Below are positions 53,549 through 62,320 of a DNA stretch of 64,000 nt, in pieces. How positions within the stretch are numbered: the stretch's first letter is position 1; every line of letters begins with the position of its first letter. A program made the translations under genes and the position numbers. The stretch comes from Ignavibacteria bacterium (GTDB taxonomy: Bacteria > Bacteroidota > Ignavibacteria > Kapaibacteriales > UBA4661). Location: assembly GCA_014654705.1 (NCBI GenBank), contig JACVZY010000020.1, positions 1-64,000 of the forward strand, written 5' to 3'. A model generated the notes under the pieces. The model was not told where the DNA came from. It saw only the letters and a list, made by a program, of their open reading frames with translations, and did no database searches.

Positions 53549-54826
53549 CTACCCAATCCACTCAAAGCCACAATACGAGCGAAGCGGCTCGGGGATATGA
53601 ATGCGCCCATCTTCGGTTTGGTAGTGTTCCAAAAGCGCGACCATCAGGCGCGGCGTTGCCAAGCCGCTTCCATTCAGCGTATGGACGAACTCCGGTTTTG
53701 CACCATGTTCGGGGCGGAAGCGGATGTTTGCGCGACGTGCTTGGAAGTCCTCAAAATTGGAGCAGCTAGACACTTCGAGCCATTTTTGTTCCGCAGGCGA
53801 CCACACTTCGAGGTCGTAGGTTTTTGCGCTGGAAAAGCCCGTGTCACCGTCGCAAAGCAGAATTGTTCTATACGGTATGCCCAACACTTCCAAGATGCCT
53901 TCTGCATCGCGGACAAGCGTTTCAAGTTCATTGTAGGAATCCTCAGGTCTGACGAATTTCACCATTTCAATTTTGTTGAACTGATGTAAGCGCAGGAAGC
54001 CGCGTGTGTCCTTGCCGTAGCTGCCCGCTTCACGACGAAAACACGCCGAGTAGGCACAATGCTTAATCGGTAGGTCTGTTCCCGTTAGAATATCGTCGCG
54101 GTAGATATTGGTGATTGGTACTTCTGCCGTTGGGATGAGATAGAGTTCATCGTCAGTGCAGGCATACATATCGTCGGCGAACTTGGGCAACTGCCCAGTG
54201 CCGCGCATCGATGTGGCATTGACAAGGAACGGCACAAATACTTCGGTGTAACCGTTTTCTTCAGTATGTCGGTCGAGCATAAAATTGAGCAATGCCCGTT
54301 CCAAACGTGCACCTTTGCCGATGTAAAGCGGAAAGCCGCTCCCGGAGATCTTTGCACCGCGCTCAAAATCAACGATTGCGAGGTCTTTGGCAAGCGTAGC
54401 ATGGTCTTTGCGGAAACCGCGCTCTGCTTCGCAAGCATTTACGCCATCTTTGCGTCGTATTTCTACGTTGCCCGTAGCATCTTTGCCGTGCGGAACGCTT
54501 TCGTGCGAAACATTGGGGACATAAAGTGCAATATGTTCCATTTGCTCTTCCACGCCGCGTAATTCCTCGTCGAGTTGCTTGATGGTGTCCGAAACGGTCT
54601 TCATTTCAGCGATAAGCGCATCCGCATTTTCTTTTGCTTTTTTCAGACGAGCAATTTCGTCGGAAACGTTGTTGCGCGTTGCTTTCAGGTCTTGTGCTTC
54701 TTGTATGATGGCACGCCGACGCTCATCCATTTTGACAAAACCGTGAATGTCCGGCTGCGCGTGCTTGGCGTGGGAGTTCTGGATAACTCGCTCAGTATTG
54801 TCGCGGATAAATTTTGTATCGAGCAT
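53549..54826 (-). CDS. serS: Seryl-tRNA synthetase
   Basis: Charges tRNA-Ser. The 425-residue class II synthetase has an N-terminal helical coiled-coil arm (~30-105), motif 2 (FRREAGSYGKDTRGFLRLHQF) and motif 3 (NGSGLATPRLMVALLEHYQ). I start at 54826 (MLDTKFIRDNTERV); 18 upstream in-frame residues have no homology. The carboxy end YCGFEWIG is typical. Confidence 0.96.
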   Translation of the reverse strand: MLDTKFIRDNTERVIQNSHAKHAQPDIHGFVKMDERRRAIIQEAQDLKATRNNVSDEIARLKKAKENADALIAEMKTVSDTIKQLDEELRGVEEQMEHIALYVPNVSHESVPHGKDATGNVEIRRKDGVNACEAERGFRKDHATLAKDLAIVDFERGAKISGSGFPLYIGKGARLERALLNFMLDRHTEENGYTEVFVPFLVNATSMRGTGQLPKFADDMYACTDDELYLIPTAEVPITNIYRDDILTGTDLPIKHCAYSACFRREAGSYGKDTRGFLRLHQFNKIEMVKFVRPEDSYNELETLVRDAEGILEVLGIPYRTILLCDGDTGFSSAKTYDLEVWSPAEQKWLEVSSCSNFEDFQARRANIRFRPEHGAKPEFVHTLNGSGLATPRLMVALLEHYQTEDGRIHIPEPLRSYCGFEWIG

Positions 54827-54923
54827 AATGCGAGGTAGAAATAATTCGAGTAGAAAATGACGAAATGACGGCGCTTTCAACGCCGACTATCAAAAAACAT
54901 TTGGTAAAAATGGTACAAAACAA

Positions 54924-56887: not shown

Positions 56888-59800
56888 TTATTGCTTTTCC
56901 CCAATGATGAAATACGTCTTCATTATGCCCTTCCCTTTGACCTCAATAGCGCCGCGCTCCTCGAAATCAAACATATCTTTCAACAGGTTATACACTTCTT
57001 CCGAGCACTGTACTCTCCCAGATTCTCCGCTTGATTCCATGCGGCTGGCGATATTGACCGTATCGCCCCAGAGGTCGTAGGCAAATTTTCGCATCCCGAT
57101 AACGCCCGCCACGACTGCACCAGTGTGCATGCCGATACGCACGTTGATTTTTTCGTCCAGGTCTGCCGTGAGTTCTTGCAGCTCTCGAATGCCAGCCAGC
57201 GCCATACGTGCCACCTGCGCGGCATGGTCTTCCATCGGCTCTGGCAGACCGCCGACAAGCATATACGCATCGCCAATGGTCTTGATTTTTTCCAGATGAT
57301 GTGTTTCGGCAAGGTGGTCGAACGTCGTGAAAACCATACTAAGGTTTTCCACCAGATGCTCCGGTGGCACACGGGCAGACATATTGGTAAAACCCACAAT
57401 GTCAGCAAACATCACTGTTACGCTATCGAACTTGTCGGCAATAATCTTTTCTCCAGCCTTGAGGCGCTCTGCTATTTTCGGAGGCAGGATGTTCAGCAGC
57501 AAACGGTCAGACTTTCGGCTCTCTTCCTCAATTTGGAAGTTCTTTTCGTGCAACACCGTGTTGTTCATCTCAATTTCTCGCGCCTGCTCGTCCAAAATCT
57601 TCACTTGACGCTGTATTTCAGCCGTGCGGTCATCCACGAGTTTTGCCAGTTCCCGCTCTCGCATTTTCGCTCTCCGCAAGCGCCACTGCACAAAGCCCAA
57701 CATCATTGCCAGCATAGCGAGGATGCACAAAGCAATAAACCACCACGTCTGATAAAACTTCGGCAGAACTTCAAAACGCATCGCCACGCCGACATCGTTC
57801 CAAACGCCGTCGTTATTACAGGCTTGAACGCGGAAGGTGTAGAGATGCGGCGAAAGATTGGTATAATAAGCCTCGCGTCGCTTTCCCACTTCTATCCAGT
57901 CGTCATCGAAGCCTTCGAGCTTGTAGCGGAAATGTACCTTGTCAGGAAAAAGAAGACTCAGCGCTGTGTACCGAATCGTTATCCGTTCAGTGCCAGCGCG
58001 GAGTTTTAGCACATTATTGTCTTCCACATCACTTTCGATACCGCTAAGAACAACGTTGGGAAGCGATACCGATTTCTCATTTGCAAAGACCTCTTCGATA
58101 AGAACAGGCGGCGGTGTGGTGTTACGTACAAGGGTTTGAGGGTTAAAGCGCACAATCCCTTTCATTGTGGGAAACCAAAGGTTGCCCTCATTGTCAAGAC
58201 AGGCGGCGGGCTGATTATTGCCATTGCACTCCGCGCTGCGCATACCGTCGCTTTTGCCGAATGACGTTACCTCCACTGTCGAGCGCTCGCCATCAAGGAA
58301 GGATGTGATTTGCTGCTTTGTAATGCGATAAATACCGGAGAGACCGCTCAACCAGTAGTTCCCTTGCTTGTCCTGAATCATCCAGCGCGTGGCTTCTTCG
58401 GGCAAACCGTTGATGGAGGAAAGAATTTTGAGAGTGCCGTTTTGTGTCGTACTCTTATCGGAGGCACTATCGCCATCATCGCGCCAGAGCGCAATCCCGA
58501 ACTGCGTACCAATCCACATCATACCGGTATCGTCGGCGACTACATATAGTGCAGTGTTACTTGGTAGTCCTTGTTTTTGGCGGATTGCTGCAATAGCGCC
58601 GTTTTCCTCTACAATACTCACGCCGCCGTCGCGCGTCGCCAACCACAATCGTTTGCGTCGGTCTTGGGCAATGGCAAAAATATAATCGCTCGTCAGACCG
58701 TTTTTTGTGGAAAGAACGCTCACAAGATGACCGCTATTCTTTGAGCCGTTTTGTTCAAAACGCTGCAAACCGCCTCCAAAACTGCCCGCCCATAGCTGTC
58801 CCTTGTGGTCTTCATACAGCGCACGAATAGTGTTTTGCGCAATACTTTCATTGCCTCTGAAACTCGTAAACACGCCATTTTCGTAGCGAATAAGCCCCAA
58901 GCCTGCCGTGCCGAACCAAATTCTACCTTTGCTATCTTCTGTGACGGAGCGAATAAATGCGCCTTGCGGAATACCGCCTTTGGTATTGGCGTAGTCAAAG
59001 TGCTGGACTGTGCTGCCAAGCATCATGGTAATTCCGGTATTGTAAAAACTCCCCATCCACACCCGCCCGGAACGGTCTTCGAGCACTGTCGAGAAAATTT
59101 CATACGGAATACCTTCTTTTTTACCAAAGACCGTGAATTTAGGATCTTTGATGCGATCTATACCACTTCCGCCTGCGGCTATCCAAACACTGCCTTCGTA
59201 ATCTTCGGTGAGTGCAAGAATGGTATTGCTCGACAGCCCGGCATTGCCGCTATTGATGCTCGTAATCACTCCATTGTAGTAACGGTTCAAGCCATTGCTT
59301 GTTCCTATCCAAAGCGCTCCGGCACGATTCACAAGCAGGCTAGAGACCGCTTCACTACTCAGTCCGTTAGCATTTTTGAGATGCTGTGTGAAGCCACCAC
59401 CCGACCAGCGTTGCAAGCCCCGGCTTGCCGTGCCTATCCACACGCCACCAGCGCTGTCTGCCGCCAGCGCTGTAATCACTTCGTCTGCCAAACCATCTTG
59501 TACGGTGATATGCCGCGTTTGAGAATTTTCTATGACGTACAAGCCGTCTTGCTGTGTACCAATCCAGATGCGATGTGCTTGGTCTTCCACAATCGCAGAA
59601 ATTTCTATGGTCGGAATACTTCGTGCTAATTGTGGCGCAGAGACCGCACCATTGCTGGACTCGTGCAGTAAAACTGCTCCATTCCGTGTTCCAGCCCACA
59701 CCACGCCCCGCGAATCTTGATACACCGTCCGAATAAAATTGTGTGCCTCGCTTGTGTCGCTGATGTGCTGCGTAAATTTGCCCCGCCAGCGCCGGAATAA

Positions 59801-60298
59801 GCCGTTTCCGCCCGTGCCTATCCACAATGCACCATCTCGTGCGGCATAGAGGGTCTTCATGTCGTTTCCACGCAAGCTGGGCGTGTTGTTTGTATCCAGC
59901 ACCACAAACCGCGCTCCGTCAAAACGCAGCAGCCCCGTGGAAGTCGCTATCCAGATGTAACCATCTGTCGTTTGTGCAATACCGACGGGAGCTATGTCCT
60001 GCGGCAGTGTCGGAGAGCCGCTTTCGCTTGTCCATGAATCGTAGAGGTACTGCGAAGGAGATTTTGTCGGTGAGAGACTTGGCAAGAACTGAAGTGGGGT
60101 ACTCTGGGGCGTTTTCTGATTCATTGGTTGTGCTGGCAGCCTTTGCAATGACAGTGCTGAAGTACCAACAACAAGGCTCAAAACAGCCAAAAACCAAAGA
60201 CAACGGTGCGACTGGGAGTGTATATCAACAAGCCGCCAAGCACGGCGCTTGTGGCTTCGGGCGGACGATGAAATGAACGAAAAGAGGGGATGATTCAC
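56888..60298 (-). CDS. Propeller-sensor adenylate cyclase (Reg_prop, Y_Y_Y, class III cyclase)
   Basis: A 1136-residue membrane receptor. The N-terminal hydrophobic segment (~32-50) is followed by a periplasmic propeller (~90-690; repeated GALWIGTxxGLxR units), Y_Y_Y (~770-850), one helix (WWFIALCILAMLAMMLGFV, ~850-870), a coiled coil (~885-925), and a class III cyclase domain (~950-1130). Metal aspartates D966 (FADIVGF) and D1010 (TIGDAYM), adenine-selecting K1006 and DLWGDTVN, and the transition-state NIASR are all intact, so it should make cAMP. The start codon is GTG. The sensor half closely resembles the 16334-19963 histidine kinase. It diverges from the triple-receiver pseudo-cyclase. 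Confidence 0.92.
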   Translation of the reverse strand: MNHPLFSFISSSARSHKRRAWRLVDIHSQSHRCLWFLAVLSLVVGTSALSLQRLPAQPMNQKTPQSTPLQFLPSLSPTKSPSQYLYDSWTSESGSPTLPQDIAPVGIAQTTDGYIWIATSTGLLRFDGARFVVLDTNNTPSLRGNDMKTLYAARDGALWIGTGGNGLFRRWRGKFTQHISDTSEAHNFIRTVYQDSRGVVWAGTRNGAVLLHESSNGAVSAPQLARSIPTIEISAIVEDQAHRIWIGTQQDGLYVIENSQTRHITVQDGLADEVITALAADSAGGVWIGTASRGLQRWSGGGFTQHLKNANGLSSEAVSSLLVNRAGALWIGTSNGLNRYYNGVITSINSGNAGLSSNTILALTEDYEGSVWIAAGGSGIDRIKDPKFTVFGKKEGIPYEIFSTVLEDRSGRVWMGSFYNTGITMMLGSTVQHFDYANTKGGIPQGAFIRSVTEDSKGRIWFGTAGLGLIRYENGVFTSFRGNESIAQNTIRALYEDHKGQLWAGSFGGGLQRFEQNGSKNSGHLVSVLSTKNGLTSDYIFAIAQDRRKRLWLATRDGGVSIVEENGAIAAIRQKQGLPSNTALYVVADDTGMMWIGTQFGIALWRDDGDSASDKSTTQNGTLKILSSINGLPEEATRWMIQDKQGNYWLSGLSGIYRITKQQITSFLDGERSTVEVTSFGKSDGMRSAECNGNNQPAACLDNEGNLWFPTMKGIVRFNPQTLVRNTTPPPVLIEEVFANEKSVSLPNVVLSGIESDVEDNNVLKLRAGTERITIRYTALSLLFPDKVHFRYKLEGFDDDWIEVGKRREAYYTNLSPHLYTFRVQACNNDGVWNDVGVAMRFEVLPKFYQTWWFIALCILAMLAMMLGFVQWRLRRAKMRERELAKLVDDRTAEIQRQVKILDEQAREIEMNNTVLHEKNFQIEEESRKSDRLLLNILPPKIAERLKAGEKIIADKFDSVTVMFADIVGFTNMSARVPPEHLVENLSMVFTTFDHLAETHHLEKIKTIGDAYMLVGGLPEPMEDHAAQVARMALAGIRELQELTADLDEKINVRIGMHTGAVVAGVIGMRKFAYDLWGDTVNIASRMESSGESGRVQCSEEVYNLLKDMFDFEERGAIEVKGKGIMKTYFIIGEKQ

Positions 60299-60589: not shown

Positions 60590-62320
60590 ATGGCGCTCAA
60601 AGCCTTCGTTGCCTCGACAAGCAAGCTCTTGTCAAAATTTGTTCAGGATGTCTGTACTGCCGAAGATATCAGCGTTACGCAGATGGGCAAAGAAACCTCG
60701 CTTTTTGCTGACCTCCAAGCTACGTTACCGGATTTGCTCTTTCTGCACGCTTCGATTATTGAGGAATTTGACGACAATATTATCGCCCGCATCAAAGCAG
60801 ACGAGCAGCTTAGCCGTGCCTACATCGTGATTTTTGCTTCGCGTCCTGAAGGAGCTGAATTTGCCTATAAAGTCGGTGCAGATGCCTTTCTGCCGATTCC
60901 TTTCAAGAACGAGCAATTTGAACAGATTTTGCGCCTGATTCTCAATCTGCCCAAGCATATTCTGGTGGTCAGCAAGACCGAAGCGCTCCCAAACACCGTC
61001 CGCGAGGCAGGCGCAATGTACGATTACAACGTACTCTGGGCACACTCGGCGGAAGAAGCCACAAAGATAGCAGGCGAGAAATTCCCAGACTTGATTTTGA
61101 GCGAATATGCTCTTCCGCAGCGCAACGGTGCTGTTCTAAGCAAATTGGTAAAAAGTTCGCACCTTTTGGGACATATTCCTGTGGTGATTATGATGGAATC
61201 CAACGACGAAGAACTCGTCGAAGAGTGCTTTGAAGCTGGTTCCAACGACGTGTTTCTTTTCCCTTTCGACCGCCAAAAACATATCCATCTTATCAGCAAT
61301 ATCGTCAAGCCGCCGCGCAAGGGTCATAAATACTCGGCACTCGTGGTGGACGACAGCATCACCGTGCGCCACGTTATCTCCAAAATGTTCAAACAAATGG
61401 GTTTTACCGTGCTGACGGCTGCCGATGGGCAGGAGGGTATGAAACTCGCCGTGCAGCACCGCCCCGACATCATCACCAGCGATTACGATATGCCCGTGAT
61501 GGACGGGTGGGACTTTTGCGCCCGCTTGCGCGAAAGCGAGTTTACACAGCAGATCCCTGTCGTGATGGTTTCCTCGCGCGATACCAACACCGACAAACGC
61601 AAGGCACATTCACTCGGCGTGGCAGCATATCTGACCAAACCGTTCAAAACCGAAGATTTGGAAAAAGTTGTGAAAGCGCTTGTTGTGCAGACACAGCGCC
61701 GAAAGAAAGAAGAAACTCTTGAAAAATACACCGCTAGCGACTCTGTGAAAAAAATAGGCGAAGGAAGCGCTCATGCCGCAATGGAAGAGCACGCCGTAAC
61801 GATATTTTCCTGCAATATCTGTGACTTTGGCAAAAAATTCGACTGGCTGGGGACGGAGCGGGCAATCGAAGTGCTCAACGAGTATTTCCGAGCCGTAACG
61901 GGCATGATTACCGAGCGCAATGGCGTGATAGACAGCATTATGGGTGATGAAATCCTGGCGCGATTCGACACCGGCGATCCAAGCAGTGATGCGGTCAATG
62001 CGATTGATACCGCAGTGGCACTCTTGGAGTTTCTCGACTACTACAACTCCCGCGACATAGACGAACTGGAAGTGCGCATCGGTATTCACTCAGACCGCGT
62101 GCTGGTGGGCAATTTTGGCAGCGCCGAACACCGCTTAGTCTATTCGATGCTCGGCGACGGCGTGAATATCACCAAGCAGCTCCAACGCGCCACAGCACCT
62201 AATTCCTGCCTTTTCTCTGCCGATACCTACGATTTTGTCCGCGAAAGCGTAGGCGACTTGCAATCGTACTCCGTGCCGCGCAAAGGTGGCGAGCGAGATA
62301 TTATTGCGTATAAGTTGTAA
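60590..62320 (+). CDS. Triple receiver protein with degenerate class III cyclase domain
   Basis: A 576-residue cytoplasmic protein. Receiver-like domain 1 (~1-118) lacks the acidic pocket and has His where the phospho-Asp should be (LLFLHASI). Domain 2 (~122-240) has Glu in that place (LILSEYALP). Domain 3 (~248-370) is canonical, with DD, D298 (TSDYDMPVMDGWD) and Lys in YLTKPFK. The C-terminal cyclase fold (~395-576) keeps D453 (MGDEIL) and N526, but the first metal Asp is N409 (SCNICDFG), the adenine Lys is Ser and the transition-state Arg is Q530. Catalysis is therefore doubtful. The ATG at 60590 is used; the frame is open to 60524. It diverges from the propeller cyclase. Confidence 0.88.
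   Translation: MALKAFVASTSKLLSKFVQDVCTAEDISVTQMGKETSLFADLQATLPDLLFLHASIIEEFDDNIIARIKADEQLSRAYIVIFASRPEGAEFAYKVGADAFLPIPFKNEQFEQILRLILNLPKHILVVSKTEALPNTVREAGAMYDYNVLWAHSAEEATKIAGEKFPDLILSEYALPQRNGAVLSKLVKSSHLLGHIPVVIMMESNDEELVEECFEAGSNDVFLFPFDRQKHIHLISNIVKPPRKGHKYSALVVDDSITVRHVISKMFKQMGFTVLTAADGQEGMKLAVQHRPDIITSDYDMPVMDGWDFCARLRESEFTQQIPVVMVSSRDTNTDKRKAHSLGVAAYLTKPFKTEDLEKVVKALVVQTQRRKKEETLEKYTASDSVKKIGEGSAHAAMEEHAVTIFSCNICDFGKKFDWLGTERAIEVLNEYFRAVTGMITERNGVIDSIMGDEILARFDTGDPSSDAVNAIDTAVALLEFLDYYNSRDIDELEVRIGIHSDRVLVGNFGSAEHRLVYSMLGDGVNITKQLQRATAPNSCLFSADTYDFVRESVGDLQSYSVPRKGGERDIIAYKL

Follow-up and report, generated by a model that had tools for sequence, protein, structure and literature searches.

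A conserved triple-receiver protein of Candidatus Kapaibacterium ends in a putative class III pseudo-cyclase

Introduction

What might a protein do that joins three receiver domains to a nucleotide cyclase domain lacking most of its catalytic residues? The question is raised by a gene in a 64,000-nucleotide stretch of contig JACVZY010000020.1 (assembly GCA_014654705.1, Ignavibacteria bacterium), which we refer to as the window and to which all positions below refer. A preliminary description of this gene proposed a phosphorylation-controlled pseudo-cyclase that pairs with, or competes against, an intact cyclase encoded divergently beside it. In class III cyclase dimers, one chain provides the two metal-binding Asp residues of an active site and the other provides the Lys, the Asp or Thr, the Asn and the Arg, and without either one of the metal Asp residues activity is gone or nearly so. 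On the strength of its residues, we refer to the protein as a putative pseudo-cyclase. Below we consider its domains, its orthologs and its neighbor, and then which known systems it resembles.

Domain organization

The reading frame, Pfam and the fold pattern of an AlphaFold model all agree with the coordinates, length and order of domains given in the preliminary description: three receivers (REC1 to REC3) followed by a cyclase domain (Table 1). Pfam places receiver domains in two stretches of the 576-residue protein, the best at residues 251–361 (E 1e-43), with a PF00072 score of 148.5 bits for the receiver match of the REC3-containing protein, and it places Guanylate_cyc (PF00211) at residues 400–551 with 40.5 bits against a cut-off of 21.9. 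No separate Pfam stretch covers REC1, which is too diverged, but AlphaFold predicts alternating strands and helices there in the manner of a receiver, as in the other two. Overall, AlphaFold predicts three successive receiver folds (about residues 1–120, 122–240 and 248–366), a helix at residues 354–380 and a cyclase fold from residue 397. The model, built from nine orthologs, has a mean pLDDT of 76.4 and a pTM of 0.40 (the other four models are at about 60), which makes it fair rather than good and the relative placement of the domains unreliable, so we use it for the folds and not for their placement.

Table 1. Positions in the window of the gene, the parts of its product and the divergent neighbor.
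Feature	Window position	Strand	Remarks
Pseudo-cyclase gene	60590..62320	+	ATG at 60590, stop at 62318-62320, 576 aa
REC1 (residues 1-121)	60590..60952	+	pseudo-receiver: acid pair absent; H53 at phospho-Asp position; I103 at Lys position
REC2 (residues 122-244)	60953..61321	+	pseudo-receiver: S128/K129 for acid pair; E172 at phospho-Asp position; F/Y224 for Lys
REC3 (residues 248-366)	61331..61687	+	intact receiver: D254/D255, D298, S328, K350
Long helix out of REC3 (residues 354-380), then low-confidence linker to residue 396	61649..61777	+	AlphaFold; pLDDT <50 at 369-395
Putative class IIIb-derived pseudo-cyclase domain (residues 397-576)	61778..62317	+	N409, S449, D453, S519, N526, Q530
Divergent neighbor: Reg_prop propeller, Y_Y_Y, membrane segment, intact class IIIa-type cyclase (D-K-D-D-N-R)	56888..60298	-	adjoins here; not a conserved partner

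Receiver residues

As had been noticed at first reading, only the third receiver has a phospho-accepting Asp. REC3 alone carries the full set expected of a response-regulator receiver (acid pair, phospho-Asp, Thr or Ser, and Lys), and this set is invariant in all nine orthologs. The other two receivers lack it: the His that replaces the phospho-Asp of REC1 is a Gln in the ortholog from the genome labeled G009, and the Lys of REC2 is replaced by Phe in the protein studied here. At residue 172 of REC2 (61103–61105), all eight genomes of the genus have a Glu and the G009 ortholog has an Asp. This Glu looks like a permanent phospho-mimic, even if neither the genus nor G009 has the acid pair; since the G009 REC2 has its Asp without the acid pair and the Lys, it is not a working receiver by the residues listed above.

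Catalytic residues of the cyclase domain

Aligned to CyaC of Arthrospira, the six residues listed for the cyclase domain in Table 1 fall, in that order, at metal site 1, the base-selecting Lys, metal site 2, the base-selecting Thr, the Asn and the Arg. The substitutions reported earlier (Asn for the first metal Asp, Ser for the Lys, Gln for the Arg) and the two retained residues, D453 and N526, are all as described, and the Ser at the Thr/Asp position is a further loss that had been missed. The domain has the fold and profile of a class III cyclase, but of the residues that a catalytically competent one carries it has neither the pair of metal Asp residues, nor the Lys with its Asp or Thr, nor the Asn with its Arg.

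These losses are shared by the orthologs. Metal site 1 is Asn in all nine; the Lys position is Ser in eight and Ala in one; and in the eight sequences readable at these sites the Thr/Asp position is always Ser and the Arg position is Gln, Leu or Ala, never Arg. D453 is kept throughout, and the position of N526 is Asn in six of eight and Gly in the other two. The comparison across orthologs that had been suggested as a check therefore shows conserved substitutions, none of the orthologs having regained Asp at metal site 1, nor Lys or Arg at their positions, and orthologs with an intact catalytic set, which would have pointed to decay in this lineage, did not turn up among the nine. It is quite improbable that the domain retains catalysis of some unusual kind, such as a feeble or modified nucleotide cyclase activity. 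The persistence of D453, and mostly of N526, would fit such an enzyme, of which both could be left-overs; a change from Thr to Ser at 519 is mild for class IIIb; and a solved chain named Cya2 guanylyl cyclase has Glu, native or engineered, for the base-selecting Lys. The uniform Asn at metal site 1, the Arg missing from every readable sequence and the two Gly replacements at 526 nevertheless speak against activity, and we would expect the protein to lack it in vitro.

The best solved relatives of the domain, in both sequence and fold searches, are CyaC, CyaB and Cya2, which we take to be class IIIb enzymes, and its closest paralog within the genome is a class IIIb-type domain on contig C29 (27% identity, E 3e-19). 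Judged by sequence, then, the domain is derived from class IIIb. CyaC of Arthrospira (Spirulina) platensis (1wc0), itself class IIIb, is the closest solved homolog (E 3e-17) and is also among the closest by fold, with Foldseek TM scores of 0.73–0.79 by target length, but it keeps both metal Asp residues and the Lys, Thr, Asn and Arg, whereas the pseudo-cyclase keeps only D453 and N526.

The genome (G000) encodes 25 class III cyclase domains, of which 23, including that of the divergent neighbor, are intact (D-K-D-D/T-N-R) and only two are degenerate, together with 19 matches to cNMP-binding domains (18 over the cut-off). A large cyclic-nucleotide network thus exists, and with it a cAMP network in which the pseudo-cyclase might act, any link of its own to that network being hypothetical. 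The second degenerate cyclase (L088, G000 C104:136458-137273) is a membrane-type protein with Glu at metal site 1 and Met and Ala at the Asn and Arg positions (E-K-D-D-M-A); its gene is followed, about 1.2 kb downstream, by one for a cyclic-nucleotide-binding domain. It has orthologs or relatives (L091, L092, L141 and L122), of which L091 and L092 keep the metal Asp and also lack the Asn and Arg (GETVMIAKTL).

Orthologs and selection

Orthologs were found in all eight genomes of the Candidatus Kapaibacterium genus (this one and seven sisters), and one more in a second genus of the family (G009, 57%); the family search found none in G008, which is 70% complete. Beyond the genus, a REC1–REC2 profile run at E 1e-25 against 197 genomes sampled from the class returned no further orthologs. 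Three distant matches from outside the family that were examined (L064, L065 and L069) are receiver/histidine-kinase proteins, not triple-receiver cyclases. Another protein, L036 (386 aa, genome G024), joins one receiver to a class IIIb-like cyclase in which Gln replaces the Lys (VNQFVGD) and the remaining residues look intact.

The frame is full-length and intact in eight of the nine genomes, and in the ninth a contig end interrupts it, the remainder lying on a second contig; all the orthologs share the same start Met and have no internal stop. Pairwise dN/dS (Nei–Gojobori) is at or below about 0.15 in every domain, the cyclase domain included, these values being approximate given that dS commonly approaches or exceeds 1 and at times is saturated. 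Apart from the loss of catalytic residues, nothing suggests a functionless, decaying gene, and the intact frames, the low dN/dS and the invariant REC3 leave that explanation with a negligible chance: it is already refuted by purifying selection. Low dN/dS in a protein that no ortholog restores to a catalytic set indicates instead an old, selected pseudo-cyclase rather than local decay.

Of the four folded domains, the cyclase shows the lowest conservation, a point against the functional reading that we favor below. Within it, segments hand-picked to cover the dimer cleft and the former active site are better conserved than the remainder (0.85 vs 0.75, with none of 179 circular shifts giving as large a difference). 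This fits continued use of the cleft for pairing or binding; the same bias could have been inherited from an active ancestor.

Relationship to the neighboring propeller cyclase

The divergent neighbor has, as first described, every one of the catalytic residues. It joins a Reg_prop and Y_Y_Y sensor to a class III cyclase, and several relatives in the genus match it through the cyclase end; propeller sensors usually end in a histidine kinase, not in a class III cyclase. An ortholog of it is present in all nine genomes that hold the pseudo-cyclase gene (the eight of the genus plus G009), but the head-to-head pair is found in only four of them (G000, G001, G002 and G004). A single contig carries both genes in G007, some 76 kb from each other, and G003, G005, G006 and G009 have them on separate contigs. 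The propeller cyclase of G005 adjoins the serS-like gene (window 53549–54880), with other genes upstream. Judging by the ortholog tree, the head-to-head arrangement could have arisen once (support 73/87). The preliminary description had named lack of the pairing in other genomes as grounds for giving up its proposal, and the outcome is divided, with the genes apart in five of the nine genomes and adjacent in the other four.

Nor is any other neighbor of the pseudo-cyclase gene conserved across the genus: in G007 and G003 it is flanked by genes that, from their sequences, encode ribosome recycling factor, elongation factor Ts and ribosomal protein S2, and elsewhere by other genes. A partner chosen by gene neighborhood was accordingly rejected, and no conserved neighbor points to a cognate kinase. 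As a partner matched by class, we considered the cyclase on C29, which alone among the intact cyclases of this genome is class IIIb. We rejected it also, for it is not conserved in the genomes that have the pseudo-cyclase gene: G001 holds a close counterpart (97%), and matches in the other genomes reach at most 40%. All the intact cyclases that could be read in G003, G006 and G009 (which excludes L103 and L104, both fragments, and L137, which was unparsed) have the Asp of class IIIa. In the genomes so compared, then, no class-matched partner travels with the gene.

The pairing can also be judged from the domains themselves. The pseudo-cyclase domain and that of the neighbor are about 23% identical (E 4e-7), the former IIIb-derived and the latter of IIIa type. 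The propeller cyclase offers neither a conserved divergent pair nor the same subclass with a complementary half site. Residues have been lost from both half sites of the pseudo-cyclase, so a mixed dimer of it with any intact cyclase would have no complete site and could only be inhibitory; in the mammalian C1/C2 pair, by contrast, the lost residues complement each other. We accordingly think it unlikely that the protein is a dominant-negative subunit, the cyclase domain of which pairs with the neighbor or with other intact cyclases while phosphorylation of REC3 sets the level of active homodimer. Class III cyclases do act as dimers in which both chains contribute to each site, conservation within the domain is highest in the cleft-facing segments, and there are 23 intact domains in the genome to pair with, beside a neighbor that is never missing. 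The separation of the genes in most genomes weighs on the other side, as do the almost exclusively IIIa type of the intact cyclases, their low identity to the pseudo-cyclase in the neighbor's case, and the patchy occurrence of the C29 enzyme. In addition, the neighbor's cyclase belongs to a long chain that is anchored in the membrane and has a coiled region of its own, which would probably favor self-pairing. From these comparisons of sequence and gene order, the link of the pseudo-cyclase to the neighboring cyclase gene appears weak, and the proposal that the two pair or compete, not being supported by adjacency, subclass or half sites, should be dropped for now.

Comparison with known systems

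The best Foldseek match of the whole model is PleD of Caulobacter crescentus, which likewise has tandem receivers followed by a helix into a cyclase output, with CyaC ranking next through the cyclase domain; the TM score is low for the whole model as the placement of the domains differs. PleD is about 18% identical in sequence to the pseudo-cyclase protein and, unlike it, is an active diguanylate cyclase with a GGDEF output (REC-REC-GGDEF). The second receiver of PleD serves dimerization or docking. PopA, a degenerate PleD paralog from the same bacterium, offers the closest analogy for how the pseudo-cyclase protein might work, and like it has a multi-receiver layout. The two are also alike in that a cyclase output would bind rather than synthesize: PopA cannot make c-di-GMP but binds it (PMC12564702). 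They differ in that PopA has a GGDEF domain with a c-di-GMP site, whereas the pseudo-cyclase has a class III fold without a recognized ligand site, and three receivers of which the third is intact. Since its output matches PF00211 and is not a GGDEF domain, the protein may work like the PleD/PopA family but is not a member of it.

Within the same genus there are also single-receiver class III cyclases (represented by a 402-aa protein on C37 of G000), with a match to receiver plus cyclase domain in all nine genomes. Unlike the pseudo-cyclase, these have one receiver and, in G000, an intact catalytic set of class IIIa type.

Discussion

Of the earlier proposal, the phosphorylation-controlled pseudo-cyclase is supported at the level of sequence by a third receiver that has been kept, by cyclase losses that are conserved and by purifying selection; the pairing with the neighbor is not supported. 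We think it reasonably probable that the protein is a stand-alone response regulator with a PleD/PopA-like layout, phosphorylated on its third receiver and using its cyclase fold as an output for dimerization or for binding a ligand or partner. A histidine kinase or phosphotransfer protein, encoded elsewhere than beside the gene, would phosphorylate D298 of REC3. REC1 and REC2, which would not be phosphorylatable in the usual way, may serve as dimerization or docking modules. The signal would pass through the helix leaving REC3 to the cyclase-fold domain, which would no longer make cAMP and might act through dimer rearrangement or through binding of a partner or nucleotide, and the protein would do all this independently of the neighboring propeller cyclase.

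A more specific version, for which we see a smaller though appreciable chance, would make the pseudo-cyclase a phosphorylation-gated receptor whose cleft binds a nucleotide or cyclic nucleotide, or which caps intact cyclases, and which in this way joins two-component and cyclic-nucleotide signals. In a limited search of the open-access literature, we came across no response regulator with a pseudo class III cyclase at its end (the one phrase match is a two-hybrid reporter), and the text of a survey of actinobacterial cyclases has no match on the subject. Among GGDEF and EAL domains, degenerate members that turned into c-di-GMP effectors are a familiar case. Should the pseudo-cyclase prove to bind a ligand, or else an intact cyclase, it would represent the same route of effector evolution in cAMP signaling, a class III counterpart of the degenerate GGDEF effectors.
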